Below are positions 15,056 through 63,342 of a DNA stretch of 64,000 bases, piece after piece. This DNA comes from Nitrospira sp. (GTDB taxonomy: Bacteria; Nitrospirota; Nitrospiria; Nitrospirales; Nitrospiraceae), in contig CP054184.1 of the NCBI GenBank assembly GCA_015709715.1, forward strand, positions 1,287,001 to 1,351,000, written 5' to 3'. Position numbers and translations under genes: made by a program. The notes under the pieces were generated by a model. That model made no database searches. It was not told the origin of the DNA and saw only the letters and a list, made by a program, of their open reading frames with translations. The stretch's first letter is position 1, and each line of letters opens with the position of its first letter.

Positions 15056-15391
15056 ATGGCAACACGCAAACGAGTTCGGTCCAAGAAAGTTAGCGGATCC
15101 CGAAAGTCCCTCTCCCCGACCAAGCCCGCACGCACCGCGCAACCAGCCCGGACGACGAAGCCGAGCGGAAAACGGTCAGATGGGTTAACCCCCCGTCAGA
15201 AGGAAATTCTGAAACTGGTTTCGCAGGGTTACACGAACCGCGACATTGCAGGCCGGCTGGAGATCAGCGTGCGCACAGTGGAAGTGCACCGCTTCAATTT
15301 GATGCGGCGGTTGAAGGTTCGAAATGTAGCCCAGTTGCTCCGCCAGGCATTGCAACACGGCTTTCTCCCGAAAAACTTCGCATTCAAGTAA
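15056..15391 (+). CDS. Free-standing LuxR/GerE-type DNA-binding protein
   Basis: 111 aa from ATG 15056 (a TTG at 15041 is in frame but less likely). Residues 1-45 form a basic Lys/Arg/Pro/Thr-rich tail. The rest is a single LuxR-type helix-turn-helix: LTPRQKEILKLVSQGYTNRD, then ISVRTVEVHRFNLMRR and NVAQLLRQAL. No receiver or ligand-binding domain is present. The window has three more proteins of the same design (37541-37879, 38830-39153, 63058-63342). It probably binds DNA directly, but how it senses a signal is unknown. It sits between the FtsX-type permease (divergent) and pyrD (convergent). Confidence 0.85.
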   Translation: MATRKRVRSKKVSGSRKSLSPTKPARTAQPARTTKPSGKRSDGLTPRQKEILKLVSQGYTNRDIAGRLEISVRTVEVHRFNLMRRLKVRNVAQLLRQALQHGFLPKNFAFK

Positions 15392-37879: not shown

Positions 37880-38291
37880 GCCGTCTCTCCTTCATGCATG
37901 CCCAGTTTCACGCCTCGCCCTGTCCAATGGAGCCGCGCATGCGCCCGACTCCCCACTGTCCTCCGGCAAACTCCCCAGGGGGTTCGCCCTACGAGGCCAA
38001 CTATTCAAACTTCAGGCCTTATCGCCGTATAGGACGGTGGCCTACAAGATCAATCAGTTATCACCTCACAGGGAAAAGAGACGAATGGAAAAACCTGTGT
38101 CAGGAGCAGGATGAGTTGTGCCAACCCTGTGCCATGACACAGTAAGATGGCGCAGGACGATGTTACGGGTGCCTACTCCGAACAGGCACGGACGGTGAGA
38201 GGACGTAGCGATGTAAGGAAGGTTGTTGGGATAGCGGGTGAATCCCTTTGGGCGCCCAGCTCAGCCTTAGGCGCGCGCGACAAGGACGACT
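37880..38291. other. Intergenic stretch, about 410 bp, no supported gene
   Basis: Between the small LuxR-type gene (start 37879) and the end of the SnoaL-like gene (38292). Short open frames here show no family likeness. It holds the 21-bp element at 38115-38135. It probably contains the leader and promoter of the LuxR-type gene, which would have an untranslated leader of about 230 nt from the element. Confidence 0.6.
38115..38135 (-). promoter_or_regulatory. Sigma-54-like element B
   Basis: Read on the minus strand, TGGCACAGGGTTGGCA (38134-38119) has a full -24 box TGGCAC and GC at the -12 position, with the required 10 bp between GG and GC. On the plus strand it shows two TGTGCCA copies 11 bp apart. 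The same 21-bp block recurs at 39620-39640 (18 of 21 identical). It could instead be a repeated regulator site. Confidence 0.45.
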
Positions 38292-38687
38292 TCAGCCCAT
38301 CACAGGGCTACCGTGGTGATGGATCATCAGCCACTCGTCGCCGATGCGTTCGAACAGATTGGTCGCCAAAACCCGGCTCTCCACGGGCTTGTCTCCCTGG
38401 CGACTGGTGAGATTTTCGGTGCAGATCACCCACCCGAGATCGCCCGCGACCTGCACCTGCACGTCGGTCAGCTCAAACTTCATGGAGAAGGTGTTGTTGA
38501 AGATCAACACCCAGGAATCACGCACGGCCGGCCAATCACTCCGCAGACTCCAGCCAGGATGGATACAGGTGACGTATTCGAGGTGTGCCCACACCTTATC
38601 CATCTGAAGCATGTCCAGACTTTCAAAGGCGGCATAAAAGGCGAGATTCGCACGGGTAATTTCTTCGATTCGTTGCTCGATCACCAT
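38292..38687 (-). CDS. SnoaL/NTF2-like fold protein
   Basis: 131 aa from ATG 38687. The sequence AFYAAFESLDMLQMDKVWAH, then HPGWSLRSDWPAVRDSW and a C-terminal MIHHHGSPV, is typical of the NTF2-like/SnoaL group, including small proteins often annotated as ketosteroid-isomerase-like. No specific substrate is indicated. It has no signal peptide. An upstream in-frame start at 38840 would add 51 residues that look random. It lies downstream of the LuxR-type gene on the same strand, with about 140 bp between them. Confidence 0.8.
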   Translation of the reverse strand: MVIEQRIEEITRANLAFYAAFESLDMLQMDKVWAHLEYVTCIHPGWSLRSDWPAVRDSWVLIFNNTFSMKFELTDVQVQVAGDLGWVICTENLTSRQGDKPVESRVLATNLFERIGDEWLMIHHHGSPVMG

Positions 38688-38829
38688 CGCCTCCGATGGT
38701 GCGGCATTGTACTGCAAACACCATCGTCGGCGCGAGTGCGATTTACAGAACGGCGGGGGTGGATCCGCGGGGAGCTGCGAGGCGGCGGGAGTGCACACTC
38801 CCGCCTGATGCAGGTCGCCGCGAATCCCG

Positions 38830-39153
38830 TCAGCTCGCATGGGTGGCGAGCAACCCCTCTTCCAGCGCCGTCTTCAACAACTGGGCGATATTGGAGACGC
38901 GCAGCTTCTTCATCATATTGGCACGATGCGCCTCGGCCGTCTTGATGCTGATCTGCAGCCGTTCCGCGATGACGCGGTTCGTCATGCCGGCCCACACCAT
39001 CTGGAGGATCTCGCGCTCGCGCGGAGTCAGCTCCTCCGGCCGCCGCTTGACGGCGACCGGCTTCACCTGCACTTGGCTCAGGCTCACGGATAATCCCGGC
39101 TGGCTCGCCGCGCGATTGCGAAAACCCTGCTCATTGTCCTCGTTCCACATCAT
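38830..39153 (-). CDS. Free-standing LuxR/GerE-type DNA-binding protein
   Basis: 107 aa from ATG 39153 (or 39150), preceded by AAGGAG. A short acidic then neutral N-terminal part is followed by LTPREREILQMVWAGMTNRV, ISIKTAEAHRANMMKKL and NIAQLLKTALEEGLLATHAS. It is a lone helix-turn-helix, closely related to 37541-37879. The 81-aa gene at 39186-39431 ends 32 nt upstream, so they are probably in one transcript. Confidence 0.88.
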   Translation of the reverse strand: MMWNEDNEQGFRNRAASQPGLSVSLSQVQVKPVAVKRRPEELTPREREILQMVWAGMTNRVIAERLQISIKTAEAHRANMMKKLRVSNIAQLLKTALEEGLLATHAS

Positions 39154-39185
39154 GCCCGCACTCCTTACCTCTGATGAATCCCGCC

Positions 39186-39431
39186 TCACCGCTCGGGGTT
39201 CGGCAGCGCGGGGGTCATGCTCCGGAGGTCTTGCAGATATCCCAACACCGCTTCGATGGCGCGGGCCCGTTCCCGCCAAGTGCCTTGCGACAATCCCGCA
39301 AGATCCACCCAATATCCATCCACCTTTTCCCTGACCACCAATCGATCATACGGTCCATGGGCCGAGGGCTGGATGCTCAGAAGAAATTCCCGATCGGTCC
39401 CATTCGATAACAGGAACCCTTTGACGTCCAT
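39186..39431 (-). CDS. Small protein of unknown function
   Basis: 81 aa from ATG 39431, chosen because AGGAGG lies 6 nt upstream; an earlier in-frame start at 39458 is less likely. The sequence MDVKGFLLSNGTDREFLLSI, then REKVDGYWVDLAGLSQGTWR, suggests a compact soluble domain. I do not recognise the family. It lies between an NtrC-type regulator and a small LuxR-type gene. The upstream region carries element A (39620-39640). Confidence 0.65.
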   Translation of the reverse strand: MDVKGFLLSNGTDREFLLSIQPSAHGPYDRLVVREKVDGYWVDLAGLSQGTWRERARAIEAVLGYLQDLRSMTPALPNPER

Positions 39432-39619
39432 GCTACGCCTCCTGCCGACGGTATCCAACGCCGATCTCGGTCACCCCGTCTTCACACGCTCACGCCCCTT
39501 GGTGATATCAAAGATCGTGCCATTCGATCGGGAAGCGAGACGATGTTTGAAAATCAAGGCAGTTGGCGATCGCACGGCGCAAACCACGGGGACTCGTCGT
39601 CAAACTCATGGCAGGAAGT

Positions 39620-39640
39620 GTTGTGTCACACCTGTGCCAT
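39620..39640 (-). promoter_or_regulatory. Sigma-54-like element A
   Basis: On the minus strand it reads TGGCACAGGTGTGACA (39639-39624). The -24 box TGGCAC is complete, but the -12 position has AC instead of GC. It is 18 of 21 bases identical to element B and lies about 190 bp upstream of the 81-aa gene. The NtrC-family gene ends at 39705, just upstream. Confidence 0.35.
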
Positions 39641-39704
39641 CGTTTCCCCCCTGTCACGATCGGCACAGGCGATGGAGAGAACCGTAAGCGAGAACCCGTC
39701 TCGG

Positions 39705-41111
39705 TCAGGTTAGGGGCTCGAGTGGTTGGTCGCTGATCGAATCGGCCGGGTCGAAGATGTCGTACTCGGCCAACCGCCGATAGAAAGTCCGGCGGCTCAT
39801 GCCCAGCAATCGGGCGGCTTCGGACCGGTTTCCGCCCGTTTGTCGAAGCGCCCCCATCATGCGAGTTCGTTCATCTTGTCGCTGCAGTGGAATAAACGCG
39901 GTCCCGGTCGCAGGGTTGCGAATCTCCGCCGGCAAATCCTCGACCATCAGGACCGAGCCTTTGCAATGGATCATGGCCGATTCCACCGCACTCTTGAGTT
40001 CACGGACATTGCCGGGCCAGGCGTAGGTCACCAACACCTGCAACGCCTCCTGGCTGACCTGATGGACCGGCTTCTCCATCACCGACCGGAATTGCCCCAG
40101 GAATGCATGCACCAAATAAGGAATGTCGTCCGGTCGCTCCCGTAGGGGCGTGAGGTGCAGGCGGGCCACCTTGATGCGATACAGCAGATCCTTCCGGAAG
40201 GTTCCCTGCTCCATATCCTCCAGCAGATTGTGGTGGGTGGCGGCCAGCACCCGTACATCGACCTTCCGCGGCCTCGACTCCCCTAAGCGTGTCACCTCTC
40301 GCTCCTGCAACACCCGAAGCAGGCTGGTTTGGACCGCGAAGGAAATATCGCCGATTTCATCCAGAAAGATGGTCCCGCCCTCGGCTGCCTCGAAGACCCC
40401 TTGCTGGTTGTCGATCGCCCCCGTAAAGGCGCCCTTCTTGTGGCCGAAGAGTTGGCTGCCGAGGATCGAGTCAGTAAATCCCGCACAGTTCACGGCCAGG
40501 AAGGGCTGGGACGCTCGTCGACTGGAGAGGTGAATCGCCCGTGCCACCAGTTCCTTGCCGGTGCCCGTCTCCCCCTCGATCAACACCGTGGCATCCACTG
40601 CCGCAACCCTCTGAATGTCTGCATAGAGGGCCATCATCGCCTGACTCCGGCCGATCAAGTCGTGGAACTTACCCTGATCAGCCAGTTGAGACTGCAGGAC
40701 CTGCGCGTGGTCCTCCGCGGCAAACCGACGCCGAACGTTTTCGACCCACTGTTCGGCGATCGTCAGCCGCAACTTCAGAAACTCGATTCCGACCGGCTTG
40801 ACCAAGTAGTCGTTGACGCCGGCCTGGAGTGCCGCGCGCAGGGACTCCGGTGAATCGTGCGCGGTGATCATCACGATGACGCAACGTTCGCCGCCGGAGC
40901 TGGACCGTATGTTCTGGCACAATTGGAGACCGTCGATATGGCTGCCGCGCAATTCCCAGTCGAGCAGCACCAGTTCATGGGGCCGATGGGCGAAGGCCTC
41001 CCATGCCGAATCGCCGTCGGCGCAGGCCGTCACGTCATGGCCGCGCGCCTGGATCACCTGCTCGAACAGCCGGCGGATATCGATATGGTCTTCCACCAGA
41101 AGCACGCGCAT
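39705..41111 (-). CDS. Sigma-54-dependent response regulator, NtrC family
   Basis: 468 aa with three domains. A receiver (about 1-120) has the phosphoacceptor Asp51 in LVLLDWELRG. An AAA+ domain (about 150-385) has Walker A GETGTGKE, the sigma-54 contact loop GAFTGA (227-232) and Walker B GGTIFLDEIGD. A C-terminal Fis-type helix-turn-helix ends NRSEAARLLGMSRRTFYRRL. It activates sigma-54 promoters after phosphorylation. The adjacent hybrid kinase (15 nt upstream) is the likely partner. Element A lies directly downstream and element B about 1.6 kb away on the same strand. Confidence 0.95.
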   Translation of the reverse strand: MRVLLVEDHIDIRRLFEQVIQARGHDVTACADGDSAWEAFAHRPHELVLLDWELRGSHIDGLQLCQNIRSSSGGERCVIVMITAHDSPESLRAALQAGVNDYLVKPVGIEFLKLRLTIAEQWVENVRRRFAAEDHAQVLQSQLADQGKFHDLIGRSQAMMALYADIQRVAAVDATVLIEGETGTGKELVARAIHLSSRRASQPFLAVNCAGFTDSILGSQLFGHKKGAFTGAIDNQQGVFEAAEGGTIFLDEIGDISFAVQTSLLRVLQEREVTRLGESRPRKVDVRVLAATHHNLLEDMEQGTFRKDLLYRIKVARLHLTPLRERPDDIPYLVHAFLGQFRSVMEKPVHQVSQEALQVLVTYAWPGNVRELKSAVESAMIHCKGSVLMVEDLPAEIRNPATGTAFIPLQRQDERTRMMGALRQTGGNRSEAARLLGMSRRTFYRRLAEYDIFDPADSISDQPLEPLT

Positions 41112-41126
41112 ATGACGCTCACCGCA

Positions 41127-44100
41127 CTAGATAAACACGACCTGCAGCCGGTCCAGATAACGAGTCAAGGAGTCGATCGTCGCCTGGATTTCAGCCCCGT
41201 TCCCATGCAACGCCGCGGCCTCCAACGTATGCCCAAAGACGCTGATGGCCATCAAGCCGTAGGTCCCTCCCGCTCCCTTGATACCGTGACCGATGGCACG
41301 GATCTGCTCGAAGTCTTGAACGGCCAACGCCTCCGCGAGTTGCGAGAGGTCTTGCCGTCGATGCGCGAGAAATCCCGGCATGAGACTTTCAAACTCCGCG
41401 CTGACCTGTAAGACCACCGGTTCGGCATGGAACTCTGCGTTGAATCGGCCTGCCAGAGAGGCCGTCTGCGCATAGAGCTGAATCGCTTCCAACAGCCGCG
41501 CCTTGCGGATCGGCTTCGTCAAGTGCGCCGTGCAGCCGGCGGACAGGCTCCGCTGAATCTCCCCCTGCAAGGCATTGGCCGTCAACGCGAGAATCGGAAC
41601 CGGAGGACGACCCTGCGCACGTTCCCAAGCCCTAATGGCCTTGGTGGCGCTGTACCCATCCAGGACCGGCATTTGGATATCCATGAGCACCAGATCATAG
41701 GCCCCCCGTGTGAACATCTCAACCGCCACCTGGCCGTTCGGCGCCGTGTCCACCCGATGGGGCGTGGATCGGAAATAAAACTCGATCATACGGCGGTTGT
41801 CGACGAAGTCTTCGGCCAACAGGAGGCGTAACCCGCCCGCACCGTTCGCGGAAGCCCCGGTCTGCGGCGACCGCGACTCCGCCTCATACTCCGGGGCCTT
41901 GCCGATCGCCGCCATCATCCCGTTGAAGAGATCGGAACGCCGGAACGGCTTCGTGAGATACCGCACGATTCCACTCTCGCGGGCCCGCATCTGATCGCCC
42001 GCCCGCCGCTCCGAAGTCAACATGATGATCGCCGGGGCCGCGAATCCTGGTGTCCGGGCGATGGTATCGGCCACCTGCCATCCGCTCATCTTCGGCATCC
42101 GCACGTCCAAAATCACCAGCCGGTAGGGCATGCCCGCCTGAGCGGCCCGCGACAGCTCCATCAACGCCTCCTCGCCGCCGGGCGCTTCCGCGGCGGGAAT
42201 TCCCCAGCCCATCAGGGTCTCGCGAACGATCAGGCGATTCGTCGCGTTGTCGTCGACGATCAAGGTGCGCAACCCCGCGAGCTGTTCCCATTGCGCGGGC
42301 GGAGTCGAGCCGGACGGTTGGGCCGGAACCGCGAACTTGGCGGTCAGCCGAAAGGTGCTTCCCTTGCTCACCTCGCTCGCGACCTCGATCTTGCCGCCCA
42401 TCCGTTCGATCAGTCGCCGGGAAATCGTCAAGCCGAGACCCGTCCCGCTGTATTGTCGCGTGATCGACGAATCGACTTGGGTGAAGCGCTCGAAAATGGC
42501 GTGCAATTTCTCCGGCGGAATCCCGATGCCCGTATCCCGAATAGTGAAGAGGAGATGGCCCGGCCCGTCGTCGTCGGGATTGCGCTCCACCCGCAACACG
42601 ACTTCGCCTTCTTCCGTGAACTTCACGGCATTGCCCAACAGATTGAGCAGAACCTGCCGTAAGCGGTTGGGGTCGCCTATCAGCGAGGTCGGCACATCCG
42701 GCTGAATCTGGTAGGCCAACTCCAGATCCTTTTCCATGGCGCGCACGGCGACCAGCTCGGCGGCCCGCTGGACCAGATCGTTCAGATCGAATTCGACGAG
42801 GTCCAAATCGAGATGCCCGGCCTCGATTTTCGACAGGTCGAGCACATCGTTGATCAAGCTCAGCAGGTTGCTGCCGGCATCGCGGAAGATCTCGACATAT
42901 TCCCGTTGATCCTCGCTGAGCGGCGTCTCCAGCAGCAGGTCGGCCATGCCGACGATGGCGTTCATCGGCGTGCGAATCTCGTGGCTCATCGTCGCCAGAA
43001 AATCGCTTTTGGCCCGATTGGCGGCTTCGGCCGCTTCTTTGGCCATCGTCAAGGCGGCTTCGGCTTCTTGACGCTGTTTCGCTTCGTAGGCCAGGGTCAC
43101 CAGGTTGCCTATCGAGGTGGCAAATTGTGTTTCTTCGGGACTCCATTCCCGCGCGTCCCCGCCCCGCTCGTGGCAGACGACGCCCGCCAGTTGACCGCCG
43201 AAAAAGATGGGCACATCCAGGAGCGAAGTGATTTCCAACTCCCGCAAGTACGGCAGGAGCAGTTCGCGGGTTCTCGGATCGCGCACGGCATCGTGCGCAT
43301 CGACGACCTGCTCCTGCAGCAGTTCCGCCAGATATCGCGGATACTGCGCCACGTAGAGGCGCTGCCCTGTGGAGTGCCGCCCAGGCCCGCGTTCATATAA
43401 CTCGGCGCAGTCCAACGTCTCCCCACTCCGATCCAACAGCCAGACGCTGGCCCGATCCGCCGCCAAAACCTTGGCCGAGGTTTCCATCAATTCTTCCAAG
43501 GCCGCCTGCCAGTCTCCGGACCCGATGTGCTCGCTCTTCGTGAGGCGCATCAAGGCGTCCTGGTGCGCCTGCAATACCGCCTGGCTACGCGACAGGGCCG
43601 CCTCCGCTTCCTTGCGGCGTGTAATGTCCAGCACCAGCGTCAGCAGACAATCCTCATGTCGTAGAGAGACGGGTTCGACGTTGAATAGTCCGTGCCGGAC
43701 CTCGCCGCTTTTGGTGCGGAATTCTTTTTCCAGGTTGCGCAGGAAGCCGTCGCGCCGAAGCAGATCCGCCAACTGCCGGCGATCCTCGGGATTCACCCAA
43801 ATCCCGACATCCAATGAAGACAACCCGACCAGTTCTTCGCGCTGGAAGCCCGAGATACGCATGAAGGCTTCATTCACATCCAGCACACGTCCGTCTTCCA
43901 ACCGGCTGATCGCCATTCCCGCCGGACTGGCATGAAACGCTTTGGAGAACTGCTCTTCGCTTTCCTGCAGCGCCAGTTCCACCTGTTTCCGTTCCGTGGT
44001 GTCGCGGGCCACCACCTGAAACCCGGTGACCTTCTCCCCCTCCAGCAACAGTTGCGCATGTTGCCCCAGCCAGACCTCGCGCCCATCCTTGGTCACGACC

Positions 44101-45152
44101 GGCACCTCGTACACCGAACGAGGTTTGCGCCGTACGAACTGCCGGCCATAGAAACGTTCGGCCCGTGACCGCCAGTGCGGCTGCACGATCTCGAGATAGT
44201 GCCGCCCCAGCAATTCCTCGGGCAGATACCCCAAGACCCGCAGGGATGTGGGGTTGCAGTAGACGAACCGTCCGTCGGCATCGGTGCGATAGATGATATC
44301 GCCCACATGCTCCACCAACCGACGGTACCGCTCCTCGCTGTCTCGCAACGCTTCTTCTGCCTGTTTTCGCGCCGTCACATCTAAATGGATGCCGCTCATC
44401 CGCGCCATGCGCCCCTGCTCATCGCGCACGCCGCCACCGAAGGCGGCGATCCAGCGATAGGACCCATCAGCATGGAGGAGACGGTGGTCGAGGCGATATT
44501 GTTTGCTCTGTCCGTCCCGATGGAGGGCTACGGCAGCCAATGCCCGCGCCCGATCATCCGGATGAAGACGAGACGCCCAGGCGGCAATGGTCGGCTCGAT
44601 CTCGTGAGCGGCACAGCCGAGTTGGCCTTTCCAACGAGGAGAATAAAAGGCAGCCCCCGTCGTGAGCTCCCACTCCCAGACTCCGACATGCGCCCCTTCC
44701 GCCGCCAGTTCGAATCGTTCCTGGCTTTCGCGCAAGGCCGTTTCCACCCGTTTCTGTTCGGACAACTGCAAAGTCAGTCGCTCGTTGGCCGCAATCAGGC
44801 TCCTCGTCTGCTCGGAGACCTGCTCTTCCAAGCGGCTATTCGCCACCCGCAAGGCAACCTCCGTCTTCTGCTGTCGAGAGAGCAGGCCGGTGGCCCCCCA
44901 CACCATCGCCACGCCAAGGAGACGGTTGACGAGGGCCACTCCAGGCTCGACGCCCTGAGGAGACCCGAGAAACCCGACCGCCATCAACAGGGTCACCGAC
45001 GATGCATACCCCACCAGAACCTTGGGCTTAGCCTGTAACGCCGTCATCCAGAGCGGCAGGAGGTAGAGGAGCCAGACAGCATGGCCTAAGGGCGTCGCCC
45101 AATCCAGTGCAAAGACCACCGTGGTCACTAACAGGATCGCAGTACACCACAT
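41127..45152 (-). CDS. Very large hybrid histidine kinase with three PAS, GAF, two receivers and Hpt
   Basis: 1341 aa from ATG 45152; TTG/other starts up to 45254 would add 34 residues. Order: about four membrane spans (1-90), coiled coil, three PAS/PAC domains (about 150-525), GAF (about 545-690), DHp with His724 in FLATMSHEIRTPMNAIVGMA, HATPase, receiver 1 (Asp1016 in LVILDVRMPKM), receiver 2 (Asp1158 in LVLMDIQMPVLDG) and a C-terminal Hpt (His1289 in IGHGIKGAGGTYG). A full four-step phosphorelay is built into one protein. The NtrC-type regulator 15 nt downstream is the likely final acceptor. Signal unknown. Confidence 0.93.
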   Translation of the reverse strand: MWCTAILLVTTVVFALDWATPLGHAVWLLYLLPLWMTALQAKPKVLVGYASSVTLLMAVGFLGSPQGVEPGVALVNRLLGVAMVWGATGLLSRQQKTEVALRVANSRLEEQVSEQTRSLIAANERLTLQLSEQKRVETALRESQERFELAAEGAHVGVWEWELTTGAAFYSPRWKGQLGCAAHEIEPTIAAWASRLHPDDRARALAAVALHRDGQSKQYRLDHRLLHADGSYRWIAAFGGGVRDEQGRMARMSGIHLDVTARKQAEEALRDSEERYRRLVEHVGDIIYRTDADGRFVYCNPTSLRVLGYLPEELLGRHYLEIVQPHWRSRAERFYGRQFVRRKPRSVYEVPVVTKDGREVWLGQHAQLLLEGEKVTGFQVVARDTTERKQVELALQESEEQFSKAFHASPAGMAISRLEDGRVLDVNEAFMRISGFQREELVGLSSLDVGIWVNPEDRRQLADLLRRDGFLRNLEKEFRTKSGEVRHGLFNVEPVSLRHEDCLLTLVLDITRRKEAEAALSRSQAVLQAHQDALMRLTKSEHIGSGDWQAALEELMETSAKVLAADRASVWLLDRSGETLDCAELYERGPGRHSTGQRLYVAQYPRYLAELLQEQVVDAHDAVRDPRTRELLLPYLRELEITSLLDVPIFFGGQLAGVVCHERGGDAREWSPEETQFATSIGNLVTLAYEAKQRQEAEAALTMAKEAAEAANRAKSDFLATMSHEIRTPMNAIVGMADLLLETPLSEDQREYVEIFRDAGSNLLSLINDVLDLSKIEAGHLDLDLVEFDLNDLVQRAAELVAVRAMEKDLELAYQIQPDVPTSLIGDPNRLRQVLLNLLGNAVKFTEEGEVVLRVERNPDDDGPGHLLFTIRDTGIGIPPEKLHAIFERFTQVDSSITRQYSGTGLGLTISRRLIERMGGKIEVASEVSKGSTFRLTAKFAVPAQPSGSTPPAQWEQLAGLRTLIVDDNATNRLIVRETLMGWGIPAAEAPGGEEALMELSRAAQAGMPYRLVILDVRMPKMSGWQVADTIARTPGFAAPAIIMLTSERRAGDQMRARESGIVRYLTKPFRRSDLFNGMMAAIGKAPEYEAESRSPQTGASANGAGGLRLLLAEDFVDNRRMIEFYFRSTPHRVDTAPNGQVAVEMFTRGAYDLVLMDIQMPVLDGYSATKAIRAWERAQGRPPVPILALTANALQGEIQRSLSAGCTAHLTKPIRKARLLEAIQLYAQTASLAGRFNAEFHAEPVVLQVSAEFESLMPGFLAHRRQDLSQLAEALAVQDFEQIRAIGHGIKGAGGTYGLMAISVFGHTLEAAALHGNGAEIQATIDSLTRYLDRLQVVFI

Positions 45153-45397
45153 CGACTTGCGTCCTTCCTTTCTCGCCCGCCAAGCGATCCGACTGGATTC
45201 CCGACACGCTGCCGACAGAATAGGCCCGCGCCGAAAACCGGTAAAGTAGGCCAATCGGCCCTAGGCGGCTCTAGCGCCAGCCTCGTTCCTGTCCGTCCTA
45301 CGGGCAGAAACCTGGGTCTGCTCAGATGAAATGAGGAAAATAGGAGGATCGAGAGAACTTTTCAACCATGGAGCCAAAGAACGATGGGAAGCCGGAC

Positions 45398-63057: not shown

Positions 63058-63342
63058 ATGCCTATGTCCAAGCCTCCTCGTCGACTCAAATCAGCACCTC
63101 GAAAGGTGCTCGCGGCTCCCCTGGTGCCCACGCAGCGGCCGATCGAGCTGACCAAACGCGAACAAACCATTCTCAACCACGTCTGGCTGGGGGCGCAGAA
63201 CCAAACCATCGCCGGCGAGTTGCATATCAGCGTGCGCACGGTGGAAGCACACCGGGCCATGATCATGCGGAAATTCGGCGTGACGAACGTCGCGCAGCTG
63301 CTCCGATCGGCCTTACTGGGAGGGTTCCTGCAATTGCGCTAG
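63058..63342 (+). CDS. Free-standing LuxR/GerE-type DNA-binding protein
   Basis: 94 aa; ATG 63064 is an equally possible start. A basic Lys/Arg/Pro-rich N-terminal tail of about 28 residues is followed by LTKREQTILNHVWLGAQNQT, ISVRTVEAHRAMIMRKF and NVAQLLRSALLGGFLQLR. It is the fourth small protein of this design in the window. It closes the second signalling cluster, 186 bp after the response regulator. Confidence 0.88.
   Translation: MPMSKPPRRLKSAPRKVLAAPLVPTQRPIELTKREQTILNHVWLGAQNQTIAGELHISVRTVEAHRAMIMRKFGVTNVAQLLRSALLGGFLQLR

Follow-up and report, generated by a model that had tools for sequence, protein, structure and literature searches.

The window analysed here is a stretch of 64,000 nucleotides of Nitrospira DNA, in which a run of minus-strand genes and control elements is read in the order hybrid histidine kinase, EBP1, second 21-bp block, small ORF, LuxR1, SnoaL_3 protein, first 21-bp block and LuxR2 (Table 1). 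The initial annotation had described LuxR (GerE) genes downstream of both blocks and an NtrC-family gene adjoining the second, and we find the same arrangement. EBP1 has the features of an NtrC-family protein, namely a Fis HTH and a sigma-54 AAA+ domain carrying the GAFTGA and Walker A motifs. The start at 39431, named in the initial annotation, belongs to a small ORF of 81 aa, after which LuxR1 comes. No Pfam or NCBIfam match to the small ORF was found. GerE is a short LuxR-type regulator, and the GerE domain is the sole domain found in LuxR1 and in LuxR2; among the NCBIfam matches listed for these two proteins (25 each), none reaches its cut-off. Both proteins resemble PedR, a short GerE-type LuxR regulator, in being short and having the GerE HTH alone. 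They differ from the short GerE-type regulators in that the LuxR genes here are often paired with a small ORF: a small-ORF relative precedes LuxR1 in 21 of the 29 genus loci (the window's own included) and LuxR2 in 22 of 29, the window's LuxR2 being without one. The best relatives of LuxR1 are present in all 29 genus genomes. The hybrid kinase lies upstream of EBP1 in those relatives whose examined stretch extends that far, and its adjacency makes it the probable partner of EBP1.

Table 1 Genes and control elements of the locus, in minus-strand order (window positions)
Feature	Position	Strand	Basis or remark
Hybrid histidine kinase	41127-45254	-	Pfam: PAS, GAF, HisKA, HATPase, two receivers, Hpt
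EBP1, NtrC-type activator	39705-41111	-	Receiver + sigma-54 AAA+ (GAFTGA) + Fis HTH; putative UAS binder
Possible extra activator site	39652-39667	-	TGTGCCGATCGTGACA (TGT-N10-ACA); sequence; weak
Putative UAS of LuxR1 operon	39622-39639	-	Half-sites TGGCACA (39639-39633) and TGACACA (39628-39622); core of second block
Third, inverted half-site	39609-39615	-	CCTGCCA; alignment; TGYGCCA in most aligned relatives
Predicted sigma-54-type promoter of LuxR1 operon	39507-39522	-	TGGCACGATCTTTGAT, GG-N10-GA; conservation and matrix
Small ORF, 81 aa	39186-39431	-	First gene of predicted LuxR1 operon
LuxR1, 108 aa	38830-39156	-	GerE DNA-binding domain, PF00196 E=1.7e-19
SnoaL_3 protein, 131 aa	38292-38687	-	PF13474 E=1.8e-28; probably third operon gene
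Further half-site of putative LuxR2 UAS	38135-38141	-	TGTGTCA; sequence
Putative UAS of LuxR2	38117-38134	-	Half-sites TGGCACA (38134-38128) and TGGCACA (38123-38117); core of first block
Further half-site of putative LuxR2 UAS	38096-38102	-	TGACACA; sequence
Candidate, diverged sigma-54-type LuxR2 promoter	38004-38019	-	AGGCCTGAAGTTTGAA, 115 bp from UAS; weak
LuxR2, 112 aa	37541-37879	-	GerE domain, PF00196 E=2.1e-18

Two observations on the genes stand apart. Across all 28 relative LuxR1 loci the SnoaL_3 protein retains 92-96% identity, more than its neighbours EBP1 (about 80-85%) and LuxR1 (about 64-76%). On the plus strand the window also encodes two more small LuxR/GerE homologues (15158-15370 and 63100-63333), whose HTH identity to LuxR1 is 54% and 49%, respectively.

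On the minus strand the first block (38115-38135) has the sequence ATGGCACAGGGTTGGCACAAC and the second (39620-39640) the sequence ATGGCACAGGTGTGACACAAC. Their identity at 18 of 21 positions and their shared strand, reported earlier, are borne out, as is the presence in both of TGGCAC, with GC (first block) or AC (second) at the -12 spacing. Eighteen is the best same-strand 21-mer match between the two intergenic regions; in a control of 1,000 first-order Markov pairs of these regions the best match averaged 14.5, the maximum was 17 and no pair reached 18. The pattern TTGTGYCANNCCTGTGCCA has two perfect matches in the 4.16-Mb genome (the two blocks), none with one mismatch, two with two and 15 with three. 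Its reversed control gave 16 matches in all in the same genome, so the non-perfect matches are at chance level, and as the pattern was derived from the blocks themselves the scan shows their uniqueness only. Across the window, TGGCACNNNNNGC with one mismatch occurs at chance frequency (86 matches against 76 expected), and so do direct repeats with three mismatches (10 against 12.6), among which only two exact pairs stand out.

The LuxR1 control region was aligned for 27 of the 29 genus loci; G024, whose contig ends at LuxR1, and G002, in which no promoter box was found and which is counted as being without a UAS, were left out. Two conserved islands are seen in the alignment, the block and a box, TGGCAYGATCYTTGAT, located 113-117 bp downstream of it. 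In the block two half-sites stand in tandem (TGRCACA-N4-TGRCACA), and an inverted TGYGCCA usually comes after them. Columns of the box have a mean conservation of 0.97, those of the tandem half-sites 0.83 and those between the two islands 0.66; across the region of the inverted half-site (39608-39616) the mean is 0.89. The GG and the GA of the box are each invariant (27/27). With a cut-off of at most two mismatches, which is our own choice (G008 has three at the right place), the tandem UAS is found in 25 of the 27 aligned loci, and its spacing to the box is 116 bp in 15 of these, 115 bp in seven, and 113, 114 and 117 bp in one each. The block therefore occupies the position of an enhancer relative to a conserved box. 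A review puts the distance from enhancer to promoter at about 100-150 bp (PMC7057263), and a study of Clostridiales places most UASs at 100-250 bp upstream, with promoters often having several of them (PMC6615313).

When scored with a matrix built without this genome, the window's own box, TGGCACGATCTTTGAT, ranks first of 127,966 window positions. It lies inside the interval covered by the initial annotation, where it was missed, and is a better sigma-54-like box than the block. We predict that transcription of the LuxR1 operon starts near 39496. The -12 element of the box is TTGA in 27/27 loci; the usual element is TTGC, and the canonical GC is thus absent. Confirmed E. coli sigma-54 sites with other -12 elements, as entered in Table 1 of PMC4591121, include pspA and pspG (TTGT) and hydN (GTGA). 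We note that two further motifs, TTGACGc and TAA..CCCTAGT.TT, are conserved between the LuxR1 UAS and promoter (about 39523-39605 in the window, and in relatives). The latter, which has diverged in the genome of the window, could be a GerE/LuxR self-site. Exact TGT-N10-ACA, the form of the possible extra site in Table 1, occurs in 6 of 27 LuxR1 regions (shuffled mean 1.0) and is thus not favoured there over spacings of 8 or 9, each of which also occurs in 6.

The LuxR2 set comprises 25 sequences, 24 placed by their box and one, that of the window's genome, by spacing. The LuxR2 box of most relatives approximates TGGCAyrrsCyTTGAT and is accompanied by a composite half-site array, with TGTCTC mostly at -140 to -121 and TGGCACA-like sites mostly at about -110 to -101 and -90 to -81. 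At LuxR2 of two loci, L052 and L079, the tandem of the window's first block recurs, with 116 bp separating it from a box. The window itself has four TGRCACA-type half-sites at 38096-38141, and TGTCTCA was not found in its LuxR2 region. The candidate box scores -5.8, which is third-best in the region and is equalled or exceeded at 286 of the 127,966 window positions; it is outscored by two sites within the first block, at 1.0 (an overlapping site) and -0.8 (the block, a value reached at 75 of 127,966 positions). Since the candidate scores poorly and the block sites score higher, the LuxR2 promoter in the window may be weak, altered or different.

A near full-length orthologue of EBP1 (at least 80% identity, E <=1e-100) is present in 23 of the 29 genus genomes, the window's own included. 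G016 has a broken copy, and G019 an EBP1 tail at a contig edge. Of the loci that could be assessed, all 24 that contain EBP1 sequence have the UAS, vs 1 of the 4 that do not: G027 has a UAS, and G002, G008 and G014 do not. These three genomes and the broken G016 belong to one clade, so the co-loss represents few independent events; moreover, G002 is 66% complete and its EBP1 may therefore simply be absent from the assembly. In the G016 locus (L073, G016:C85) EBP1 is without an internal stretch, where the frame shifts, and the UAS and promoter are intact; the defect reflects either recent decay or an assembly error.

A paralogue, EBP2, was located in 25 genus genomes and adjoins a third LuxR gene (LuxR3) in 24 of the 25 stretches, the contig of G010 ending early; these 24 loci form the LuxR3 set. 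Here, a box resembling GGCA-N6-TTG(A/T) has GAGACA/TGTCTC half-sites some 80-140 bp upstream of it. The window's own genome has such a locus at G000:C1:2120129-2121623 (L183), with EBP2, then a third small LuxR, GAGACA/TGTCTC half-sites and the box GGCATAGGTCTTGAT; the LuxR match reads across one TAG. EBP1-type half-sites number 63 in 27 LuxR1 regions, 49 in 25 LuxR2 regions and 4 in 24 LuxR3 regions (shuffled means 2.8, 2.8 and 1.5), and EBP2-type half-sites number 5, 34 and 68 (shuffled means 3.8, 3.5 and 3.9). Half-site type thus tracks the neighbouring activator, and the LuxR2 regions hold both types in 22 of the 25 sequences, the window's genome not being among them. The recognition helix of EBP1 is SRRTFYRRL in 22 of 23 copies and SRRTFYPRL in the broken G016 copy (SRRTFY in 23/23), and that of EBP2 is SRAT(F/L)YRR(L/M) in all 24 copies containing the helix, leaving a constant R/A difference between the two. 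Just before the helix the HTH reads GNRSE in EBP1 vs GNRTK or similar in EBP2. We infer that the R/A residue of the helix sets the half-site type. The co-occurrence, together with the paralogue half-site and helix comparisons, lends indirect support to EBP1 as the most likely regulator acting on the blocks.

The search for rpoN, proposed earlier as a check, located the gene in the window's own genome (E=6.4e-57) and in 29 of the 29 genus genomes searched. A strict UAS-gap-promoter pattern had 19 matches in 18 of these genomes, of which 18 lie at LuxR1 and one at LuxR2, and its reversed control gave no match. In 147 family genomes the pattern matched 20, two of them outside the genus. One of the two (G042, another genus) has the pattern before a small ORF-LuxR pair, with its own EBP1 some 8 kb away; the other (G087, L189) has no relatives of the locus genes nearby and was taken as chance. 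G046 and G064 have more distant EBP1 orthologues (about 58-60% identity), and the 9.5-kb stretches examined there yielded no LuxR1 or LuxR2 relative, so the link between EBP1 and LuxR is not universal. Looser patterns were also scanned across the 29 genus genomes. TGGCACGNNNNTTGAW gave 48 matches in 24 genomes (reversed control 5), of which 29 fall at LuxR1 (21), LuxR2 (7) and LuxR3 (1) promoters and 19 elsewhere. TGGCACGNNNNTTGCW gave 54 matches, with all 29 genomes represented (reversed control 15); 36 of the 54 have TGGCACGNCTGTTGCT in common, with one or two of these in the majority of genomes, and may mark either a promoter or a coding stretch that has been conserved. The presence of rpoN throughout the genus, the GAFTGA motif and the enhancer spacing support the original suggestion that sigma-54 is required and that the neighbouring NtrC-type activator is involved.

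It is very likely, in our judgement, that the blocks are UASs bound by EBP1, driving a sigma-54 promoter about 115 bp downstream at the LuxR1 operon, with a related region at LuxR2. The observations beneath this reading are the architecture, its conservation and spacing, rpoN and GAFTGA. The hybrid kinase presumably phosphorylates EBP1, which would bind the clustered TGRCACA half-sites and then oligomerise. By looping the intervening DNA of about 115 bp, EBP1 would promote the open complex of sigma-54 RNA polymerase at 39507-39522, and the output would be a small ORF-LuxR1-SnoaL transcript. The LuxR2 control region is related, probably by duplication, and might likewise depend on sigma-54 in this genome; the relatives usually add TGTCTC/GAGACA sites matching EBP2. 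The TTGA -12 element, the tandem half-sites with no clean dyad, the window's LuxR2 candidate box scoring below two sites of the first block, the UAS of G027, which has no EBP1, and the distant EBP1 orthologues of G046 and G064 count against this reading.

The initial annotation had read the blocks themselves as sigma-54 -24/-12 promoters, a proposal prompted by TGGCAC with GC or AC at the right spacing. For the second block it is not supported. Of 25 LuxR1 loci, 11 keep the GG of the block (14 have it changed), 10 keep the GC and only 5 keep both, on which ground the block was rejected as the LuxR1 promoter, whereas the GG/GA of the separate box downstream never varies. The second block scores -11.4 vs 27.8 for this box, on a matrix that was built from the downstream-box family and is hence biased against the blocks. 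For the first block the case against a promoter is weaker, because the downstream candidate is poor in this genome and both the block and the site overlapping it score higher. Taking the two blocks together we regard them as promoters with very little probability. The other possibility raised in that annotation, a repeated regulator site, is preferable, and the NtrC-type protein itself is most likely that regulator. One could also suppose that a different regulator binds the blocks, for instance LuxR1 or LuxR2 in autoregulation, and that the adjoining activator works elsewhere. The sites are indeed tandem rather than dyad, and TTGACG and TAA..CCCTAGT.TT are also conserved in the LuxR1 region with no binder assigned to them. 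Against this, LuxR1 is kept in G008 and G014 despite a degenerate UAS, EBP1 was not found in those genomes, and the half-site type follows the neighbouring activator; a different regulator is accordingly improbable, if slightly less so than promoter blocks.

A further account concerns the first block only and is compatible with EBP1 acting at the second: the block at LuxR2 would be left over from a duplication of the small ORF-LuxR pair, with no function retained here. The missing small ORF and the poor promoter candidate fit such a history, but four half-sites remain intact amid diverged surroundings, and we think a functionless remnant unlikely, though it is the least unlikely of these alternatives.

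The proposed control by EBP1 may be compared with known systems. The NtrC, NifA, FhlA, ZraR and AtoC systems share the receiver-AAA+(GAFTGA)-Fis HTH architecture, clustered sites about 115 bp upstream and a GG-N10 promoter. The present locus differs from NtrC-type systems in its TTGA -12 element, in its mainly tandem TGRCACA sites with an 11-bp period and in its target, a small LuxR gene encoding GerE alone. The nearest published parallel that we found is the PrsK/PrsR system of PEP-CTERM genes. In that system (PMC1569441), a conserved activator site (motif 1) is combined with a sigma-54 box (motif 2), and kinase and NtrC-type regulator usually occur in tandem; its motif 1, however, ends in TTTACA, the spacer averages 62.8 nt and the targets are PEP-CTERM genes. 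EBP1 was not accepted as a PrsR, since it scores 329 bits against TIGR02915, below the cut-off of 502.6. Among the titles and abstract openings listed for Nitrospira with sigma-54, RpoN, LuxR or transcription starts, in a search that took in few subscription papers, none dealt with this module.

More tentatively, and with rather less than even confidence, the sequence comparisons suggest a two-activator cascade in Nitrospira. With recognition helices that are almost the same, EBP1 (SRRT) and EBP2 (SRAT) would read distinct half-sites, TGRCACA vs TGTCTC/GAGACA, and both would act on the composite LuxR2 enhancer of most relatives, perhaps in mixed oligomers, bringing two signals to one TTGA sigma-54 promoter. 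The control by EBP1 proposed here belongs to an ordinary class of bacterial gene switches and is conserved among related Nitrospira, which are nitrifiers. A mislocated promoter call is thereby replaced by a specific, testable control region, a DNA code is predicted for the two paralogous activators, and a way into gene regulation in Nitrospira is offered.
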